Part shown: piece after piece, positions 1 through 23,728 of the stretch
How the letters are laid out: the number at the start of each line of letters is the position of its first letter
How positions within the stretch are numbered: the stretch's first letter is position 1
Source of the DNA: a virus
DNA length: 27,027 nt
Direction: 5' to 3' (one strand)
IMG/VR virus record: IMGVR_UViG_3300013233_000219
Span: 1 to 27,027 of that record
Position numbers and translations under genes: made by a program
The notes under the pieces: generated by a model
What the model saw: only the letters and a program-made list of their open reading frames with translations
The model's database searches: none
What the model was told of the DNA's origin: nothing

Positions 1-2269
1 CATCGATAAACATCATATTGAATATACGTTTTATATTCAATCCAGTACTGGCTATCTTAACTGTTGCAATTACTACCACGTCATCACGATCTTTGAATAA
101 GTCATAAACTTCTTTTCTATCTTTCATCTTATCAGCACCAGATAAAAATATAGCCCCTGGTATTGACTTAGCTAGTTTTCTACCGAACGCAACACCACCA
201 ACAAGACATAGCACATTGCCTTTGCCAGAATCTCGTTTAATTTCAATGTAAGACTTTATCCATTCCAATCGAGACTTTTCTGTTTGTAAAAATTGTTTCT
301 CGGCAGTAAAGTCAGGAAAATATGAATCTTTGAATTGTTTATACGTTTTTACTGGAGAGTCCTTTGTATATAATACATACTCGTCATATTGTTCAGTAAA
401 ATCAGAATTCATTTGCATTATGTCTATGTGTAGTTTTGCTAAATGACCTTCATTGATCAATTCATGAGCTGGTTTTTCGTATTGTACATCTCCAACTGCA
501 AGTCGAACTGCCATTACATCAGTTTCAGCTTTAGGTAATGTTCCTGTCACGCCAAAGCGATAGGGAATATCTTTGCCGTATTCATTTAACAACTTGGACA
601 ATACTGGTCCTTTTATTCCGTGACACTCATCAACTATTATAACATCAAATTGTTGTATAACTTTAGGATTAAATGCCAATGATTGCCAAGTACTAACCAC
701 ATGTTGGTGATTCAAATCTTTACGATCTCCACTATACTCTCCAACGTCTAAATTAAAGATTGTGTATTCTTCAATTGTTTGAGCTGTTAAGTTTTTATCT
801 GGAACTATAATAATAGAACGTAACCCACCAGCTTCTTCGTATGAATGTGCAAGTGCCGCACACATACCGGTATTATGGGTAACAATATAATCATCTGTAA
901 TATATAAATGATCTGGATGGTCAACCATAATACATTGGGCATGGTTATCAGGTATACGGTTTATTTGTGCAACCAATCTCACTGGAGGTTGGTTACCAAT
1001 AGTACATTTTTTCTTTTTTGATGCTAAATTAAATAGTTGGGATGTATCATGGAAACCGATAACACACTGGAAAGTTGGTAATTTCGGATTCGTTCTGATA
1101 TCACATGTACCACCCAATGACCAAATGATATCCTGAACATCAATTGCTAATTGTTTGCTGGTTGTGCTATAAACACAGGCGCCACCATCAGTAACTGATC
1201 CATCAACATCCATCAATCCTCTAATGAGTTCCATACGCTGTTGAATGCTACCTTCCTTATATTCTTGTGGTATACAAATTGAATCGGTGGCACATCCATA
1301 TGCTCCTATTTGTATTAATAGTGATTTATTGAGTGATTCTGGTATTTTGTTAACAACAGAACGTAGTTCTTCGTTAGTTGTTGCAATTTCGACTACATCA
1401 CCATCCACATAGACACATCCCACCATGATTCCTAATAAATACGGATCAATAGACAAAACTGGAGATGTGTGTCTGTATTCAACAGGAGCAACCAATGGAA
1501 TGCTGATATTAACTGAGATGTTATTTCGGCGTTGGTTGGGGCCATTTAACTTAATCATATCTCTAGTTGTTATAACATCATCTATAACACCCACCCCATG
1601 TAGGGCGCATGGTCGTTTTACTTTCCATAAATGGTCTAAACCAACGGTTGTTTTTGCGCCATCACTGAATATTATTTCATATAATTCCATTACTCCCTGT
1701 GGGTATATGCCACTTATGTTTGCAATTGATCCATCTGGAGTAATGACTTTGGTCTTGAAATCAATATTCCCCATTTTGACCCAACCAGTTGTTGTGAGGA
1801 TTAGAGAATTGAGATCTTGCATCTTGCCACCACCAGTACCGACAATACCGACTCCACCACTATTATTAATTAGAGCATTGCACATATCCACCTGGTAGTC
1901 TCTCATTTCCCATGGACATCCACGCTCCACATCTTGAACACCTTTTGACGCCAAATAACTGGCATCTATTGTGTTTGGGTGAACTGAGGCGTTTGCTCGC
2001 TCATCTATAAGATTTATTTTATATCCAAGGCTGATGATTCTGGGAATTATATCATCCAGTATACGGATGTATGTTTTTCCAGTCTTGTGAAAATATCGAA
2101 TCTTCCCATCCCATGATCCGATTTTGTATTTGGGATTAAAGAAATAATTAGGGATGTGTATGCCATATTCTTCATAGAAGTATCCCATATGGTCTGGATG
2201 TAATCCAGTTAATACACAATTTACCTCATCCAAAATTCTGATTGAACACGTATTCTTATAATTCGACAT
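1..2269 (-). CDS. uvsW: UvsW-like DNA/RNA helicase, intein-containing, 3' end cut by window edge
   Basis: ATP-dependent superfamily 2 helicase of the T4 UvsW type, which unwinds branched DNA and R-loops during recombination-dependent replication. The frame starts at ATG 2269 and is open to base 2 (756 codons), so the C-terminus is missing. The first 149 residues hold the N-terminal substrate-binding region (NPKYKIGSWDGKIRYF) and then Walker A (GTGGGK). An intein (872-1822) interrupts Walker A between Lys149 and the next extein residue, Thr. After it come motif II (DECH, within VIIVDECHGIKG), motif III (VTGTL) and motif V (ASTGLNIKR). The start overlaps the end of the uvsY-like gene by 14 bases, and uvsW next to uvsY is also the T4 arrangement. 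I translated the reading frame by hand through the whole intein and found no stop. Identification is by motif, not database search. Confidence 0.93.
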   Translation of the reverse strand, partial: MSNYKNTCSIRILDEVNCVLTGLHPDHMGYFYEEYGIHIPNYFFNPKYKIGSWDGKIRYFHKTGKTYIRILDDIIPRIISLGYKINLIDERANASVHPNTIDASYLASKGVQDVERGCPWEMRDYQVDMCNALINNSGGVGIVGTGGGKMQDLNSLILTTTGWVKMGNIDFKTKVITPDGSIANISGIYPQGVMELYEIIFSDGAKTTVGLDHLWKVKRPCALHGVGVIDDVITTRDMIKLNGPNQRRNNISVNISIPLVAPVEYRHTSPVLSIDPYLLGIMVGCVYVDGDVVEIATTNEELRSVVNKIPESLNKSLLIQIGAYGCATDSICIPQEYKEGSIQQRMELIRGLMDVDGSVTDGGACVYSTTSKQLAIDVQDIIWSLGGTCDIRTNPKLPTFQCVIGFHDTSQLFNLASKKKKCTIGNQPPVRLVAQINRIPDNHAQCIMVDHPDHLYITDDYIVTHNTGMCAALAHSYEEAGGLRSIIIVPDKNLTAQTIEEYTIFNLDVGEYSGDRKDLNHQHVVSTWQSLAFNPKVIQQFDVIIVDECHGIKGPVLSKLLNEYGKDIPYRFGVTGTLPKAETDVMAVRLAVGDVQYEKPAHELINEGHLAKLHIDIMQMNSDFTEQYDEYVLYTKDSPVKTYKQFKDSYFPDFTAEKQFLQTEKSRLEWIKSYIEIKRDSGKGNVLCLVGGVAFGRKLAKSIPGAIFLSGADKMKDRKEVYDLFKDRDDVVVIATVKIASTGLNIKRIFNMMFID
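872..1822 (-). mobile_element. Class 3 intein inserted in the UvsW Walker A motif
   Basis: In-frame 317-residue insertion that would be removed by protein splicing. It starts at Met1 (codon 1822-1820) directly after Lys of GTGGGK and ends at His316-Asn317 before Thr, restoring GTGGGKTG. Block A is DLNSLILTTTGWVKMG and the VITPDG turn follows. Block B is GLDHLW with Trp66, block F is AQCIMV with Cys297, and block G is YIVTHN with Thr315. Residue 1 is Met, so the class 1 Cys/Ser nucleophile is absent. Trp(B), Cys(F) and Thr(G) form the WCT triplet that defines class 3 inteins, whose block F Cys makes the first acyl shift. The middle carries a LAGLIDADG endonuclease remnant: the first motif reads LLGIMVGCV, with Cys where the catalytic Asp belongs, and the second reads LIRGLMDVDG and looks intact. 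Confidence 0.9.
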
Positions 2270-2714
2270 CTTCTAAACTGGCTACTCTTATTTTTGTTAT
2301 ATTATTCAAACTATATGCTCTGGATGTAAATGAATGAACTGTTCCCTCGTACCGCTCGAACATTTCTTTTACTTCCAGCAACAATTGATACACACGCAAA
2401 TATGCCTCTTCATTGTCTATATATTTGTTAATTTCTCTTTCGTTTAATTCTCTTGAGTGAGTTTCTTTATATGATATGAACAGCTTACCACGCACCCTAG
2501 ACACTTCCATCTCGAAGTACTTAACAAGTGTATGCAACTCGATCTTCTTCTGATCAAAGTAATGTTGCCATGGAGAATTCTCCACATTTGCAGCTTCTAG
2601 CAATTTACCCTTGATGACCAGTATTTCCTCAGCTTTGTCTAACTCAACATCATAATTTCCCAACAATGCTGGTAGTTTATTGTACCCCTTTCCCAATTCA
2701 ATTATCTTGCTCAC
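2256..2714 (-). CDS. uvsY: UvsY-like recombination mediator
   Basis: Protein of 152 residues resembling T4 UvsY (137 residues), which helps UvsX displace gp32 from single-stranded DNA and load as a filament. Visible family traits are a mostly helical protein, a charged central stretch (WQHYFDQKKIELHTL), the block ELNEREINKYIDNEEAYL at about residues 89-106, and a C-terminal helix. The start is GTG at 2714, overlapping the upstream stop as GTGA, which implies translational coupling. The 3' end overlaps uvsW by 14 bases. Adjacency to uvsW, and uvsX and gp32 in the same block, support the call. Sequence identity to T4 is low by eye, so the assignment rests on the conserved block plus context. 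Confidence 0.82.
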   Translation of the reverse strand: MSKIIELGKGYNKLPALLGNYDVELDKAEEILVIKGKLLEAANVENSPWQHYFDQKKIELHTLVKYFEMEVSRVRGKLFISYKETHSRELNEREINKYIDNEEAYLRVYQLLLEVKEMFERYEGTVHSFTSRAYSLNNITKIRVASLEDVEL

Positions 2715-3289: not shown

Positions 3290-4354
3290 TTATTGTCCGT
3301 TCCATATCATATCTTGTGCTGTCATTAATATCTCCGCCGCTTTGTGTAAATTGGGTCTCTTCGGTAATTTTGTTTTTTTGTACCAGACTTCACGAATTTC
3401 TGTATCGAGACTGGCTGCATATTTTATAATTTCATCATACGTCATTGAACCATTTCTGATATCTAGTAGTTCTGTAGCATCTGGACGCTTTACAATAATT
3501 TCTTCATCCCGTAATGCTTCTTTTCCAATTCTTAGTAGACGAACCAGGTGCATTGCATGCTTAGAATCAAAGCCATGTTCTTCTTCAAGTGCACTACGAA
3601 CTACATTCCGATTCTTCTTCCAGTCCCAGTATTGTTTGTGTTTCTCTCGCTCATTGTTGTATTCTTCTTTATTAAATTTGACAATAAACAAAGGTTTTTT
3701 GCGCAACAACCCAACATCACCATCAGTATCAATCACAACATTCAATGGTTGATGTGGTTGTTTTTCATTGAAAGTTTTGAATCCGTCAAGTGCTATTAAT
3801 CCATATATGTTGCCACCATACGGTATTAATCTGTAACCTTCGTGATATTTCTCGATATCAATGGTAAAGATTTTTGCATCTGTAAAATTTTGAACCAATT
3901 TCACAAAATCAGTCATTTTTGGTGGGGCTTCTGAAAATGGATTGTTGATCCATTTGTTATGTCCGTTGATGCGTTTAAGTTGGGCCATCGCGTATCCACT
4001 AGTAGTAAATGCAATTTTTGATGACAATAGTTCAGAACGCTTAGAACGTATATAATCATACGCTGGTGTTCTCATCACAATATCAGAATCATCAGTCCAC
4101 AACAACTCAATGATGTTTGGGTTGCAATCTAATGTGAGTTTCATAAAGTGTGAAAGCTCAAAATATTTAGTATCTTCTTCTGATGAATCATCCCATTCAC
4201 GCACTGGGAAAAATGGTGTTCGGATATTAACCGGATTCCCACAGAATATTCCCCTGAAATCCACATCTGATGTGGGCAGGTTCGTTCCGTATGCTACGGA
4301 TCCAGCATACATTTTTACTAGTTTATTGGATGTTACTAATTGTTCTGTGTCCAT
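3290..4354 (-). CDS. RlaP-like DNA polymerase beta superfamily nucleotidyltransferase
   Basis: Protein of 354 residues with the pol-beta nucleotidyltransferase signature: Gly18-Ser19, then Tyr-Gly-Thr, then Asp30 and Asp32 in SDVDFRG. These would hold two metal ions for nucleotidyl transfer. The following YFELSHFMKLTLDCNPNIIE block matches the RlaP family (predicted RNA-repair nucleotidyltransferases) as I know it. Substrate is unknown; end-repair of host or phage RNA is the family prediction. The frame also permits a TTG start at 4384. I chose ATG 4354 because a sigma70-like promoter at 4387-4415 would start transcription near 4380, after that TTG, and the domain needs none of the extra residues. 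The next gene follows three bases after its stop. Confidence 0.8.
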   Translation of the reverse strand: MDTEQLVTSNKLVKMYAGSVAYGTNLPTSDVDFRGIFCGNPVNIRTPFFPVREWDDSSEEDTKYFELSHFMKLTLDCNPNIIELLWTDDSDIVMRTPAYDYIRSKRSELLSSKIAFTTSGYAMAQLKRINGHNKWINNPFSEAPPKMTDFVKLVQNFTDAKIFTIDIEKYHEGYRLIPYGGNIYGLIALDGFKTFNEKQPHQPLNVVIDTDGDVGLLRKKPLFIVKFNKEEYNNEREKHKQYWDWKKNRNVVRSALEEEHGFDSKHAMHLVRLLRIGKEALRDEEIIVKRPDATELLDIRNGSMTYDEIIKYAASLDTEIREVWYKKTKLPKRPNLHKAAEILMTAQDMIWNGQ

Positions 4355-4386
4355 ATTATTACCATAGTGTGTATATTTGAGCAATA

Positions 4387-5285: not shown

Positions 5286-6800
5286 CTACACTATCCATTC
5301 AAGTTTAAGTTTACCACAATCCCATATTCGGTAAAATCCACAACTACTCATCATTGATAATTTTGTATCTCCGGCATTGAACTCTGGGTTTGATTTTAAT
5401 AGTGATTTTTTTGTTTCAAATCTGCGATGATGTCGGTCATTTCCATTTGTCCACCATAATGTGGGTAATGTTGTATTTACCAACACAAATCCAATATAAT
5501 CTTTCACCAATCCAGTAAACCAACGTTTATCAACGAAAGCTATAATTTTTGTGTATTCCTTTTGTGTTACCGCATACTTAAACATCTTGCTTCCCAATCC
5601 GGGATTGTTCTTCTTATCAGTAACAAACCTCTTTAATTCCACAATGGACGGATCTGAACGTTCATTATTTTGGTGACCAAATACCATTACCCCAATCAAA
5701 TCACCTGATGGATTGAATGCACCTATTCTGTAACTACCAGAATTGCCAGCTCCTAGCAAATGATACTTATTCAAATAATCTTTGGCTTGTTTCCATGATA
5801 TTTCTGATATTGTGGCTTTTCGTGCATAACATCCCTTGTCACTTTTGTTTAATAAATGCTTAATAGTATCTTTGCATTGTTGATTCTGATTTCGCCACTC
5901 ATCTTCAAATATATGGATTAACCGTATACCTTTAGCTTCACATGTTTGTGTTTTGTTTAAATGGTACGAACTATCCTTTCCGTTGGCTTCACTGTGCCAA
6001 TATAATCCATTAGCTTCTATTGCAATGTTTGCACTTGGGATGAAAATATCTAATTCCTTTCCATTTAATATGCTCCGATTACTCGTTTCTATATCAACAC
6101 CCATTGATCGAATAAAAGATGCTATTTCATTTTCCCAGGCAGATACCCGAAACCTTTGAACTGTAATATTGTGATCTTTGCACCTGCTAGTTACTAATGA
6201 TGCTGACACACCCAAATCAGATGCTATAACTGGAATTGATTTTTTCTGTGTTGTATGTTGATCAATTAACCAGTTTTTGTCGTCCAATAGAGATAAAACA
6301 TCAGATGGTATGTTTAACTGTGATATGTGTTTCTTGCCGTATCGGATGAGGGCAGTTGCTTGAGCATTTTCAATTTTACATTCAGGACAGCCAGCTTTCT
6401 TCTTAATATGGTCTGTTGGGCGTTGAGAGAATTTACCATGACTGTTACAAATTATTGTTACTTTGTTGTCGGATGCATTATCAACATCCACCCATAACGA
6501 ATAGTCATATCTATCGTTATGTATTTTTATTGCTTGAGCAATATAATATTCTTTGTTCTTTCTTGTGTGTTTATTAGCATTTAATCTACCACAATGAGGA
6601 CATCCCGAACCCCGTAGATGATTCGCGATGCTGGTGAAAAAGCCCCCATGTGCTGGACACACAACGGGAACGTTTTTTAAGTGATATGCAGCAGCAGTCC
6701 CCAAATATGACGTCCATAATGAATAGTCATATTTGGATTGATGGACTACGTTCGCACGGTCAATGAATTGGGCAATTTTATAATTTTGCTCGTAACTCAT
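5286..6800 (-). CDS. Free-standing Vsr-like (EDxHD-type) homing endonuclease with zinc-finger-like repeats
   Basis: Protein of 504 residues from ATG 6800. Two repeats of about 55 residues come first, each with a YDYSLW motif, a Cys/His-Gly pair (CPAHGGF; CNSHGKF) and GCPxC, probably zinc-binding DNA-recognition modules. A helix-turn-helix-like stretch follows (IPVIASDLGVSASLVTSRC). The nuclease core at about 222-305 has Glu225, ELDIFIP (Asp251), IEANGLYWHSE (Glu262, His269) and YHLNK (His280), then IHIFEDEW. This fits the Vsr-like EDxHD homing endonucleases typified by I-Bth0305I. A C-terminal domain of about 170 residues has a GNAT-like look (VFGHQ, ELKRFV, IGFVLVN). The frame extends to ATG 6860, but that adds only sequence inside the uvsX 3' end; ATG 6800 leaves a 23-base overlap. 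The stop is TAG. Confidence 0.85.
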   Translation of the reverse strand: MSYEQNYKIAQFIDRANVVHQSKYDYSLWTSYLGTAAAYHLKNVPVVCPAHGGFFTSIANHLRGSGCPHCGRLNANKHTRKNKEYYIAQAIKIHNDRYDYSLWVDVDNASDNKVTIICNSHGKFSQRPTDHIKKKAGCPECKIENAQATALIRYGKKHISQLNIPSDVLSLLDDKNWLIDQHTTQKKSIPVIASDLGVSASLVTSRCKDHNITVQRFRVSAWENEIASFIRSMGVDIETSNRSILNGKELDIFIPSANIAIEANGLYWHSEANGKDSSYHLNKTQTCEAKGIRLIHIFEDEWRNQNQQCKDTIKHLLNKSDKGCYARKATISEISWKQAKDYLNKYHLLGAGNSGSYRIGAFNPSGDLIGVMVFGHQNNERSDPSIVELKRFVTDKKNNPGLGSKMFKYAVTQKEYTKIIAFVDKRWFTGLVKDYIGFVLVNTTLPTLWWTNGNDRHHRRFETKKSLLKSNPEFNAGDTKLSMMSSCGFYRIWDCGKLKLEWIV

Positions 6801-7863
6801 CAAGTTTCTTCTTGCGGTTGCTCTTTGCACTATCACCAGATGTTGGTTTTTCTTCATCATCTGTTATTACTGCATCGAGAAATTGATTACTAAGTGCTTC
6901 ACATTTAACTAATACATCACTGGCATACTTGGAAAACTCTTTTGAGTACCAGGTGTTATCTTCACCAGCCATTGCGAATCGTGAACCTTTTTTAGTGCAC
7001 ACACCCAATTCAACAGCCACCGCCAGCAATCCATTATATGGATCCATACCATCTTCATATGGAACTTCGATTGTTACAGTTTGGTATGGACGTGTAAAAC
7101 GAGTCTTATACCCTTCTGTTTTCATTCGAATGCCTTTGACATCTCTTGAATCTTTTTCTTTCAGTTTTAGTTTTGTTAACATTATAATTTGTGATAATGA
7201 AAACTTAACAGCATCAGAAACAATCCATACCCCTTCACCGTTCATCACATCTTGGTTCTTATAAACCTGGGACGTAACTACCATCGAGATATTGGGACGC
7301 TTTAACGCTTGTACAAAACTTCGCAACATAGCCTTTAATTGTTTATTACGTTGTCCCTGATCACCTTTAGTCACACCTTTAGAAAATTGTTCTTCTTCGG
7401 TTTCTGTTAATAACATATCCAAAGAATCTATCACAATGTGTAATTTGGGAGCGTCAGGATCAGATCCATACTCCGACTTGTACCCATTGATCACAGCAGA
7501 TACAACTTTCTTCACTTGTGGAATAGTATCGACTGGAATATAGGTGTAGTTATTCTCTACATCCACCCCAATAGCAGTAACAAAATCATTATCCAATGCA
7601 TTTTCAGAATCAAGAACAACAACGTGTGCTCCAGCCAATTGCGCTTCTTTCATTGAGTTTGCTGCAAGAAACGACTTTCCAGCACCAGATGGTCCAGTGA
7701 AAGATACAATACGCCCCTGAGGAACACCCCTATGAAAACTTCCAGATATGATTTTATTTAATACGTAATTGCCCGTAGAGAACCAGTAACGTGGAGGCTC
7801 GGAAGCCCCTACGTGTAAACCAGCTTTCTCAAGGTCTTTAGTAACACCCTTGATAAAGTTCAT
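6778..7863 (-). CDS. uvsX: UvsX RecA-like recombinase
   Basis: Protein of 361 residues, the T4-family strand-exchange ATPase that polymerises on single-stranded DNA with UvsY help and displaces gp32. Walker A is GPSGAGKS at 57-64. The catalytic Glu is Glu87 in VVVLDSENAL, and Walker B is LHIVIDSLDML with Asp146. The block VTKGDQGQRNKQLKAMLRSF with MVVTSQVY is characteristic of UvsX. The C-terminus is Lys-rich and presumably flexible. The start is ATG 7863 with a GGGG ribosome-binding site, 11 bases after the gp32 stop, so the two are probably co-transcribed. The 3' end overlaps the homing endonuclease gene. No interruption is seen inside uvsX itself. Confidence 0.96.
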   Translation of the reverse strand: MNFIKGVTKDLEKAGLHVGASEPPRYWFSTGNYVLNKIISGSFHRGVPQGRIVSFTGPSGAGKSFLAANSMKEAQLAGAHVVVLDSENALDNDFVTAIGVDVENNYTYIPVDTIPQVKKVVSAVINGYKSEYGSDPDAPKLHIVIDSLDMLLTETEEEQFSKGVTKGDQGQRNKQLKAMLRSFVQALKRPNISMVVTSQVYKNQDVMNGEGVWIVSDAVKFSLSQIIMLTKLKLKEKDSRDVKGIRMKTEGYKTRFTRPYQTVTIEVPYEDGMDPYNGLLAVAVELGVCTKKGSRFAMAGEDNTWYSKEFSKYASDVLVKCEALSNQFLDAVITDDEEKPTSGDSAKSNRKKKLDELRAKL

Positions 7864-7874
7864 ATATTACCCCG

Positions 7875-8774
7875 TTAATCCTTGTTCTTTTGACGAGAAC
7901 GGATTTGTTGTAATATGTTATCAGCTTCATCTTCAAATTCACCAGAGCTTTCGGTTGTTGTTTCAACTTCGTCCACCTTTGTGTTATTGGTAGGCTTTTC
8001 TGTTGTGGTGGGCTTTTTCTTTGCAACTGAAGTAAAGTTGGGAGTTTCTGGCTCTGATGGTGTTTCATCTAATGAATTACCAGTTAATGCAGCTTCCAAT
8101 AATGCTTCTGTTTTATCAAGGCCAGGTGATTGTGGCAATAATGTAGAAATATCAATCATCTGTTCAGTCGCTAATGCTACCTGATCTTCAGTCAAATCTG
8201 TACTGCGACGGATGAACTTAGATAATGAATAACTAGGATAATCGCCTTGTTTTGTTTTCTTGATAAGGAAATCTGTTCCACCGATAAATGAAAATGGAAC
8301 TTCATCTAAATCACCGGATTCAAACGCATCTTTGATAATATTGAATATTTGAAAACCTAATGCGACAAAGCGGACCTTGCCTTCATGTGTTTCATTTGTC
8401 TCTGAATTTGGAGCTAATGGATCTTCCATAACTAACACCTGAGCAAGATGTTGCTTTTTCTTCCAGTATTTCTTTCCGTTAACCTTGTCTTCTTCTTTGT
8501 AGTATGCCGCACTGACATTACATATAGGACATTCATCTCCATACATTTTCAGACATGGTGTTGTTTTTCGTTCGCCGTTGATATCCAAATGATGCATTGT
8601 TTTTTCGACCATGAATCCCATTGGATTGTCTGCGTTTGCGTCTGGTAAAAATCTAATTAGTGCTGTTGCACCATCAGGAATGTTCCAGAAAGGGTAGTAG
8701 TTGTTAGGGCGTGAAGTGCCTTCTGATTCGTTTGATTTAAATGCTGCGCGCAGTTGTTCTATTCCTAGTGCCAT
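7875..8774 (-). CDS. 32: gp32-like single-stranded DNA-binding protein
   Basis: Protein of 299 residues, as long as T4 gp32 (301). It coats single-stranded DNA during replication and recombination. The core shows ATALIRFLP at 37-45, then a zinc site formed by His61 or His62, Cys74, Cys82 and Cys85 (TPCLKMYGDECPIC), and HLAQVLVMEDPLAP. The C-terminal 60 residues are low in complexity (Thr, Pro, Glu) and acidic before a basic end, like the protein-contact tail of gp32. The start is ATG 8774 with GGAGA upstream. It is first in the recombination block, behind both a sigma70-like and a late-type promoter, and its leader can form a hairpin. Confidence 0.95.
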   Translation of the reverse strand: MALGIEQLRAAFKSNESEGTSRPNNYYPFWNIPDGATALIRFLPDANADNPMGFMVEKTMHHLDINGERKTTPCLKMYGDECPICNVSAAYYKEEDKVNGKKYWKKKQHLAQVLVMEDPLAPNSETNETHEGKVRFVALGFQIFNIIKDAFESGDLDEVPFSFIGGTDFLIKKTKQGDYPSYSLSKFIRRSTDLTEDQVALATEQMIDISTLLPQSPGLDKTEALLEAALTGNSLDETPSEPETPNFTSVAKKKPTTTEKPTNNTKVDEVETTTESSGEFEDEADNILQQIRSRQKNKD

Positions 8775-20908: not shown

Positions 20909-21287
20909 TGTAATGTCTCTTGTAATATGTATAATCTATTTTGGGTATTATTACTGTTACTGTTTTTCTGTTTAGCAGTTTTGCTGCTGATAATCTGTGA
21001 TTGCCGTCCAATACATATAATTTAGAATGCCAGTGTGGATTTAACTCACCACATCTTAGCAATTTTCCAAATGATACCCAACTCGGCCCTAAGTCTACAC
21101 CATCACCTAGTAGTTTTTTATATTTATCTACCCGCTCATCTTCAACTTGCTGTTTTTCGCAATTGACAATTGATATATCAACTTCGATAAATTCTTCCTT
21201 CATGTATCGATAATTAAATGGAAACACATATGATGTTAAGCCTTCCCATTGGTCGTGGTGTATATCGTGTGCTTCTGTGAACGTCAT
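20901..21287 (-). CDS. Small ParB/sulfiredoxin-fold protein
   Basis: Protein of 128 residues. The C-terminal half carries the ParB-like pattern: VEDERVDKYKKLL, then LYVLDGNHRLSAAKLLNRKTVTVIIPK. In ParB-family proteins the DGxHR motif forms the nucleotide-binding pocket (CTPase, nuclease or, in sulfiredoxin, ATP-binding). No helix-turn-helix is present, so it is not a classical partition protein. The start is taken as ATG 21287, which forms TAATG with the upstream stop; an upstream start at 21320 would only add out-of-frame translation of the fibre gene's end. It is sandwiched between virion genes, which is odd for such a domain. It may modify or process a fibre, or be an inserted cargo gene. 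Confidence 0.78.
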   Translation of the reverse strand: MTFTEAHDIHHDQWEGLTSYVFPFNYRYMKEEFIEVDISIVNCEKQQVEDERVDKYKKLLGDGVDLGPSWVSFGKLLRCGELNPHWHSKLYVLDGNHRLSAAKLLNRKTVTVIIPKIDYTYYKRHYNE

Positions 21288-23728
21288 TAACTGGAACCAC
21301 CACCGGTTGTTGTAGCCCAATCACCACTCCAATCATCAATAATTTGTTCCGAATTTGATTCTATTGCAATAAAATATAACACAACACTTACATTACTTGG
21401 ATATCTACCAGCATCACTCATATATATTCCAACTTTATCTCCAGCATCAAATATTACATCAATTGGAAAATCAGATTTACGGGCGGTTCTTGCATTGCGG
21501 ACTGCCCATACCAAATCTAAGTTTTTGGGTGACGTCCCCACCCCTTCTGGAGTCGAGTATATTCGTATGTCGGTACTTCTGTCAGAATATCTGTTTGCGA
21601 ATGTGACCGCAACTAATTTTGATTTGAATGGCAGTACACCTTGTGTTCTGTTTGAGTATTTGTTGTCACCATAAATTTCTAACCATTCATTCTTTGCTGT
21701 TCCAGCTTCATTGAATATTAATTGATGTGACATTCCGACAATGCCAGTTCCACCAGACGGTCCCTGTACTCCTTGCGGTCCAGCGTTGCCTTGTATTCCT
21801 TGTGGACCTTCTACTCCCAATGCACCAGTTGGTCCAGTTGGTCCAGTTGGTCCAGTGTTGCCAAGTGGTCCTTGTGGGCCATCGTTTCCTGTTGTTCCGG
21901 CAGGCCCCACTAGTCCTGTCTGTCCTATACTTCCTTGGTCACCTTGTATTCCTTGAGGTCCTTGTATACCGGCTGCACCATCAACTGACATGTCAGTGAT
22001 GTATACCCAACTTGTTCCGTTGTATAGATATAATTTGCCGTAATCAACGTCTGTTGTTGGTAAAGTACCAGCAACCAAACCGAAGCTATTCGGAGTTATT
22101 GTTCCGGCTAATAATTCTGCTACTGAATTGAATATAGTTTCAATATTAAACCCATCACCAGTGTCTCCTTTGTCACCAGATAGTCCGGTTGGCCCTTGTA
22201 ATCCAGTATCACCTTGTATTCCCTGTGATCCTTGTATTCCCTGTGATCCTTGTAATCCAGTATCACCTTGTATTCCTTGAGGGCCAGTCGGTCCTTGTAA
22301 TCCAGTATCACCTTGTATTCCTTGAGGGCCAGTCGGTCCTTGTAATCCAGTATCACCTTGTATTCCTTGAGGGCCAGTCGGTCCATCTATCCCAGATATA
22401 CCATCTATACCATCTATACCATCTACTCCGTCTATACCAACCGCACCAGCATTACCTTGAGGTCCTATTGATCCAACCGCACCAGCATTACCTTGAGGTC
22501 CTATTGATCCAACCGCACCAGCATTACCTTGAGGTCCTTGGATGCCGGCTGCTCCCTCAACTGACATGTCAGTGATGTATACCCAACTTGTTCCGTTGTA
22601 TAGATATAATTTGCCGTAATCAATATCTGTTGTTAGTAAGGTACCGGCAACCAAACCGAAGCTATTCGGAGTTATTGTTCCGGCTAATAATTCTGCTACT
22701 GAATTGAATACCATATCTATTGAAAAATTCTGGCCAACAGGACCTGTTAATCCAGTTAATCCAATATCACCTTGTATTCCTTGAGGGCCTATTACTCCAG
22801 TGTTGCCTTGTGTTCCTTGTATTCCTTGAGCGCCTGTTACGCCAATTAATCCAATGTCACCTTGTATTCCTTGTATTCCTTGTATTCCTGCATCACCTTG
22901 TATTCCTTGAGCGCCTGTTAACCCAGTATCACCAGTATTCCCAGTTACACCTACCGGCCCTATTGGCCCAATTACTCCTTCTGGACCTTGTGGGCCCTCG
23001 CTTCCTTGTATCCCTTGTGATCCCTGAGGTCCTATCAAATAATTAACAAAATCAATTTCTGTTCCGGTGTTGCCTGAATTTGTCCAAGATTCGTAAGCAC
23101 TACCCAGTCCTGTTATTCCGTTTGTGCCGACTACAGTAATACTATGTTCGACGTCTACTAACATATCAGCTGATGTTCCGTTATCTCCCCTACCTATAGC
23201 AACCCGAAATCCGAATTGAGTTTGGTTTGATATTTGCACGTTTGTGTCAGTTGTTGTGTTTATTGGTTGTCCCAGTGGCAAATACGCTGTTGATCCGTAT
23301 GGTTGGACAAAAGTGTAATCATATACTCCAGTTCCACTCTTCGTTACGTTCAATCCATTGCTCGCTATGACGGTTCCGATTGTGGAAGTTTTTGCGTATG
23401 CGTAGAACCCATGAGCAGTAGCATTTGCAATCTCCTCTGCTATTTTGGCTGATGTCCAAATAACATTTGATGATGGTGGTAATGAATCATCAATAGGTAA
23501 TGTGTTATCTGTTGTTATCGCATCGACTGGACATGCCCAATCCGTAAGATATGTATCAAATATTAATTCTTCTGCTGGTGTGAGTGGTGATGCAAATTCA
23601 AAGTCAGCATCACCATCCCCAGCATCAATAATCTGAATACAATTGGGGGGTATTGTTGGCTCCGCATTTAAAGAGTCTAGGAATACACCAATACATGTAG
23701 TGGTGAATATTTTCGTATAAAAAGCCAT
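21287..23728 (-). CDS. Collagen-like fibre protein (813 residues)
   Basis: Probable trimeric virion fibre. Residues 1-230 are a non-collagenous N-terminal region. Residues about 231-664 are Gly-X-Y triplets ([12 protein letters not shown] and variants) forming a collagen-like triple helix, split into three stretches by two nearly identical modules of about 55 residues ([20 protein letters not shown] ... [15 protein letters not shown]) at about 331-390 and 526-582. Residues 665-813 are a globular C-terminal domain ([35 protein letters not shown]) of the kind that trimerises or binds receptors. The start is ATG 23728, forming TAATG with the preceding stop, and its own stop forms TAATG with the ParB-like gene. 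The coding DNA contains exact tandem and direct repeats, which could allow length changes. Confidence 0.9.
21981..22134 (-). repeat. Direct repeat copy 1 (154 bp), fibre linker module
   Basis: Nearly identical to 22557-22710, with only a few mismatches, mostly near the middle. The two copies are 576 bases apart in the same orientation and frame, and encode the same non-collagenous module. Confidence 0.93.
22248..22382 (-). repeat. Three exact 45-bp tandem repeats in the collagen-like gene
   Basis: Three copies starting at 22248, 22293 and 22338, identical by eye, each encoding a 15-residue collagen-like unit ([15 protein letters not shown]). Being a multiple of nine bases, gain or loss of a unit keeps both frame and triplet register. 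Confidence 0.95.
22439..22538 (-). repeat. 36-bp tandem repeats (2.8 copies) in the collagen-like gene
   Basis: Units start at 22439, 22475 and 22511 and encode [12 protein letters not shown]. Next to them, 22389-22437 holds shorter nine-base repeats (ATACCATCT) encoding Gly-Ile-Asp triplets. Confidence 0.92.
22557..22710 (-). repeat. Direct repeat copy 2 (154 bp), fibre linker module
   Basis: Partner of 21981-22134. Recombination between the two would delete 576 bases (192 codons) in frame. Confidence 0.93.

Follow-up and report, generated by a model that had tools for sequence, protein, structure and literature searches.

Results

The locus

The window, as we call the whole stretch of DNA analysed here, comprises the 27,027 nucleotides of IMG/VR record IMGVR_UViG_3300013233_000219, which is a 27-kb fragment. 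Its left end cuts a gene for a UvsW helicase, so that the C-terminus of this protein lies outside the window. The gene is interrupted in frame by an intein and is found near other phage recombination genes.

2-2272, minus strand: uvsW helicase frame, a single open frame on translation, starting with the ATG at 2269 and running off the left end of the record
1823..2269, minus strand: N-extein of the helicase, with the N-terminal domain and the first half of Walker A (GTGGGK, 1823-1840), aligned to the orthologs L002 and L003
872..1822, minus strand: class 3 intein of 317 aa, Met1 to Asn317, residues 151-467 of the uvsW frame, with junctions from L002 and L003
2..871, minus strand: C-extein of the helicase, beginning with Thr+1 (869-871) and truncated by the window end
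2256..2714, minus strand: UvsY-like recombination mediator, immediately upstream of uvsW (phrog_231, E 3.6e-9)
6778-7863: UvsX-like gene
7875-8774: gene for a gp32-type single-strand binding protein

Among viral families the helicase matches phrog_16 'DNA helicase' best (E 3.7e-54). The UvsW_N profile scores 25.0 bits, slightly below the cut-off of 25.3, and reaches 28.3 bits in the ortholog L002. The gene order of the window, single-strand binding protein, UvsX, UvsY and UvsW, corresponds to that of the 385-kb Xanthomonas phage XacN1, in which a single-strand binding protein and a RecA-like protein are followed by two unnamed frames and a helicase. On the basis of phrog_16, the UvsW_N score and this recombination gene neighbourhood, UvsW is a sound name for the host protein, which appears to be a helicase of the jumbo-phage type.

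Three further frames were noted, all on the minus strand. A predicted nucleotidyltransferase (3290-4384; phrog_388, RlaP match) lies between uvsX and uvsY and is unannotated at this place in XacN1. A free-standing homing-endonuclease-like gene (5286-6860; phrog_3339 and phrog_559, with a Mom-like part and a weak MTES_1575 nuclease match) shares 83 bases with the 3' end of uvsX; segA and segE of T4 adjoin uvsX and uvsW, respectively (PMC2988022). Amid probable tail-fibre genes, the frame at 21287-23728 encodes a protein of 813 aa with long collagen-like Gly-X-Y repeats.

The insert splits the Walker A motif

A scan of IMG/VR with the whole protein yielded the orthologs L002 and L003 (66-69% identical), both uninterrupted at GTGGGKTSMCA, and the XacN1 helicase is likewise intein-less (GTGAGKS). 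These empty sites show that the insert separates Lys and Thr of Walker A precisely and that Met is its first residue, so that the junction sequence is GTGGGK / M...THN / TGMC. The Pfam ResIII match scores 44.6 bits (profile 37-163) with the insert in place and 65.6 bits (profile 3-163) without it, then spanning the P-loop. Hundreds of phage inteins are homologous over the full length (E down to 3e-47), and solved class 3 inteins match directly, which excludes chance as the source of the resemblance.

Class 3 signature and predicted fold

By definition a class 3 intein has the WCT motif, made up of Trp at B:12, Cys at F:4 and Thr at G:5, and no nucleophile at position 1 (PMC5222942; PMC7664689). 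The corresponding residues of the window intein are as follows.

1820..1822, minus strand: position 1, Met, no Cys or Ser nucleophile, with the junction taken from orthologs
1625..1633, minus strand: block B His64-Leu65-Trp66, with the Trp of the WCT motif and the His of a proposed triad (His65/Trp67 of 6bs8)
932..934, minus strand: block F Cys297 (F:4), predicted initiating nucleophile, aligned with Cys118 of 6bs8
872..880, minus strand: block G Thr315-His316-Asn317, with the Thr of the WCT motif and the terminal Asn for cyclisation (Thr137-His138-Asn139 of 6bs8)

Besides the WCT residues, the window intein has block B His64, penultimate His316, terminal Asn317 and a Thr+1 nucleophile, as the class calls for. 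In an alignment of 54 phage inteins His64, Trp66, Cys297 and Thr315-His316-Asn317 are invariant (54/54); the motif used to collect most of the 54 included the C-terminal block, where Thr, His and Asn were thus partly selected for, while Trp66 and Cys297 lie outside it. The best sequence matches in the PDB are the class 3 DnaB inteins 6bs8, 6rix and 6riy, followed by 6riz, an engineered WCT variant of gp41-1. The residues paired with His64/Trp66, Cys297 and Thr315 have been reported as key in the Mycobacterium smegmatis intein DnaBi1 (6bs8; PMC6195587). An AlphaFold model of the intein (mean pLDDT 92.3) agrees with this assignment: for its splicing part the best superposition is with class 3 6bs8_C (Z 19.6; rmsd 1.5 A, 123 residues), class 1 mini-inteins ranking lower, and the whole-length model resembles PI-SceI.

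Position 1 is Ala in 39 of the 54 relatives and Met, Phe, Leu, Ser or Asp in the others. Met is found in the window, in L016 and in the intein of phage Papperlapapp (L014), Asp in L017, and Phe or Leu in others. Met1 was counted against the class 3 explanation as a minority residue, though the L016 and Papperlapapp inteins share it, and on sequence alone a class 2-like first splicing step may be considered.

On all this evidence, there is little doubt in our minds that UvsW carries a class 3 intein in its P-loop, with splicing predicted to be initiated by Cys297, and that this intein belongs to a UvsW-site lineage and has a decayed endonuclease. An earlier note, made from the DNA letters alone, had called it a class 3 intein in the Walker A motif of UvsW. 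Translation reproduces its coordinates, 872-1822, and its length of 317 aa exactly, and Met1, Trp66, Cys297, Thr315, His316-Asn317 and Thr+1 all stand where it had put them. The insertion between Lys and Thr was borne out at both junctions by the empty-site orthologs, the class by the WCT residues and His64 matching 6bs8 and by the fold, and the UvsW host by sequence alignment to the orthologs and by the neighbouring recombination genes.

Inteins of this kind in phage contigs

In the phage collection 546 records match the window intein, and in 528 the match covers 80% or more of it. The count was made without regard to the WCT motif, so other intein classes may be among these records. One short motif retrieved at least 578 relatives from IMG/VR. 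Among the best 80 of these, Gly-Lys directly precedes the assigned junction in 74 and Thr or Ser follows it in all 80; terminases and many helicases seem to be among the hosts. GK/T or GK/S is, judging from these viral contigs, the usual site of such inteins. The earlier note's description of them as uncommon does not hold, since relatives bearing the signature are abundant in phage contigs, mostly at GK/T or GK/S.

An apparent large terminase on three contigs (L005:2183-5266, also L006 and L007) seemingly houses two inteins within one Walker A loop: the first, class 1-like (CLRGD...VVVSN), is separated by just three extein residues, SGK, from the second, a class 3 intein ending in THN before Ser.

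Same-site inteins in UvsW relatives

Six of the best 80 of the at least 578 motif relatives (L016, L017, L018, L019, L027 and L028) are UvsW orthologs with an intein at the same site, their hosts being 45-69% identical to L002, and a separate scan with the UvsW gene added the carriers L141 and L148. Of the 80 nearest UvsW loci, five have an intein, the list being biased against carriers because an interrupted gene gives a split match and a lower score; in 74 the helicase frame gave no match to the intein, 56 of those showing GxGxGK[TS] unbroken, and L144 begins past the site. A tree of 61 inteins unites seven UvsW-site inteins, including that of the window, in one clade (100/97), with L016 as the nearest to the window intein (100/98; 47% identical over the intein). 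We infer that this lineage spread by homing into the conserved K/T codon pair. In a quick extein tree the empty L002 and L003 group with the filled L016, which points to repeated gain or loss.

In Alishewanella phage Slicko01 (L009) a UvsW-like helicase is interrupted at the same point of Walker A (ATNAGK/T) by an intein that has the class 3 signature; the related phage Slickus01 yields a similar match. The Slicko01 intein falls outside the UvsW-site clade, and the site has therefore probably been occupied at least twice. Erwinia phage Hallingskeid was rejected as a carrier, its helicase gene of 1,485 bp being too short to hold an intein. L028 has, besides its P-loop class 3 intein, a second, class 1-like mini-intein of 135 aa at Walker B (VIVDE / C...SN / CHG).

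In the part of the open-access literature covered by our search, no description of an intein in UvsW was found. To this extent the earlier note's statement that no UvsW case had been described stands, but at least eight further UvsW contigs, and Slicko01, have inteins at this site. What we describe is a known kind of intein in a host gene for which, within that literature, it appears undescribed, and its public siblings are unannotated.

The homing endonuclease has decayed

The middle of the intein corresponds to a homing endonuclease.

983..1495, minus strand: degenerate LAGLIDADG homing-endonuclease domain, approximately residues 110-280, with a predicted PI-SceI-like fold
1415..1417, minus strand: Cys136 where 51 of 54 relatives have the block C Asp, which the profile alignment pairs with Asp218 of PI-SceI; the window alone has Cys
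1202-1204: block E Asp207, kept in the alignment of 54

The PI-SceI counterparts of the Asp residues of blocks C and E are catalytic. Active LAGLIDADG enzymes have two catalytic Asp, one per motif, of which the window intein retains one. LAGLIDADG_3 scores 24.8 bits in the window vs 47.9 in L016, and 36 residues of the endonuclease domain of L016 are missing. Private changes in the endonuclease region number 22 in the window vs 6 in L016 (p 0.004), and in the splicing region 10 vs 7; the contrast between the two regions is non-significant (Fisher p 0.19), and the call of decay rests on the lost Asp and the deletions. The window endonuclease thus looks dead from its sequence, with the splicing parts intact. 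In such a copy splicing alone would be maintained, because its loss would destroy the helicase.

L028 is degenerate as well, with Lys and Ala at the two Asp sites. In L148 the UvsW-site class 3 intein of 291 aa (L148:1631-2503) has lost both LAGLIDADG motifs and kept the WCT residues. With empty orthologs, full copies and endonuclease-dead copies, UvsW displays three states of the homing cycle, as that cycle predicts.

Discussion

Splicing and helicase activity

By the class 3 pathway Cys297 would attack the Lys150-Met1 peptide bond to give a branched thioester; the N-extein would then be transferred to Thr+1 and Asn317 would cyclise. Joining of the exteins would restore GTGGGKTGMC. Thr+1 would serve both as splicing nucleophile and as the Walker A Thr that ligands Mg-ATP, and given this dual role a normal ATP site is expected only in the spliced helicase. 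Before splicing, the P-loop Lys and Thr stand 317 residues apart, which makes normal ATP binding unlikely. An intein in the P-loop of RadA is reported to disrupt its ATPase function (cited in PMC6195587).

The earlier note had concluded that splicing would act as an on-switch. An abnormal P-loop in the unspliced protein is a fair inference; for regulated splicing no evidence was found, and the redox cysteine of DnaBi1 has no counterpart here. That slow or conditional splicing times UvsW activity during infection is, in our estimate, unlikely. Apart from RadA, this reading can draw on DnaBi1, a class 3 P-loop intein inhibited by oxidative stress and switched by a disulphide between Cys48 and the block F Cys (PMC6195587), and on the retention of an endonuclease-dead copy, which would fit domestication. 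A switch of the DnaBi1 type was searched for in the alignment with 6bs8 and is absent: Leu47 occupies the Cys48 position, so the window intein lacks this redox trap. Neutral persistence would likewise lead one to expect an intein retained without its endonuclease, since only exact excision is tolerated, an argument made for phage introns and inteins (PMC2988022), and close relatives of UvsW manage without an intein. A more specific proposal is that the endonuclease-dead intein has been retained as a timer: by splicing slowly or only under certain conditions it would delay UvsW and so set the change from origin-dependent to recombination-dependent replication; we hold this to be quite improbable.

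It is very improbable that the intein is a remnant unable to splice and uvsW a broken copy. The degenerate endonuclease half and the long branch of the window intein would suit such a remnant. The frame, however, is open across both exteins, which are 67-68% identical to the orthologs L002 and L003; the four splicing blocks are all intact, with no residues lost relative to L016, and by the private changes given above the splicing region is not clearly faster than that of L016.

We can practically dismiss two further readings, for neither of which a supporting point was found: a class 1 intein that starts at some other Cys or Ser, and a normal domain of the helicase. The earlier note had given a shifted start and an ordinary domain as outcomes that would refute its own reading. 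A shifted start had to be checked given nine cysteines in the window intein, but the empty-site orthologs make residue 1 Met with no Cys or Ser at the N junction, and no upstream or downstream Cys or Ser fits that junction. In block B, Gly61 stands three residues before His64, at the place of the canonical Thr. Homologous UvsW proteins, among them the orthologs and the 74 of the 80 nearest loci without an intein match, lack the stretch as an ordinary domain.

With the class 3 reading, UvsW joins the phage proteins that have class 3 inteins in the P-loop. Empty, full and endonuclease-dead alleles in one gene are a useful set for study of the class 3 homing cycle and allow one to ask whether endonuclease-dead inteins persist neutrally or through host regulation. 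The members with Met1 (window, L016) and Asp1 (L017) are natural position-1 variants for intein engineering.

Comparison with known systems

The DnaB inteins DnaBi1 of M. smegmatis (6bs8) and MchDnaB1 (6rix, 6riy) share the WCT motif, the block B His and the splicing-domain fold with the window intein (Z 18.8-19.6), and DnaBi1 also its P-loop insertion (PMC6195587). Both differ in being mini-inteins without endonuclease and in having Ser+1, and DnaBi1 further in Ala1 and its redox Cys48. The mycobacteriophage P-loop inteins designated TerL1-a reside in a terminase (PMC5050341), unlike that of the window.

Helicase inteins of jumbo phages (PhiPA3, SL2, Haymo, FishSpeaker, Papperlapapp) resemble the window intein in the WCT motif and, usually, a LAGLIDADG domain, and those of SL2, Haymo, FishSpeaker and Papperlapapp lie, as here, at GK/T of a helicase. 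Their hosts, however, are annotated as SNF2-domain or other helicases and are not close UvsW orthologs. Brace et al. are said to have demonstrated the class 3 pathway experimentally in 2010 for the Snf2 intein of Deinococcus radiodurans, which is a class 3 intein in an Snf2-type helicase but, unlike the window intein, in a bacterial host. The Slicko01 intein differs from that of the window as a 142-aa mini-intein without endonuclease in a host that is about 24% identical.

The same-site inteins of the eight UvsW carriers named above, all from uncultured contigs, share the host gene and the K/T junction with the window intein, and in L016 also Met1. Most of them keep both endonuclease Asp, whereas the window intein, L028 and L148 are degenerate.
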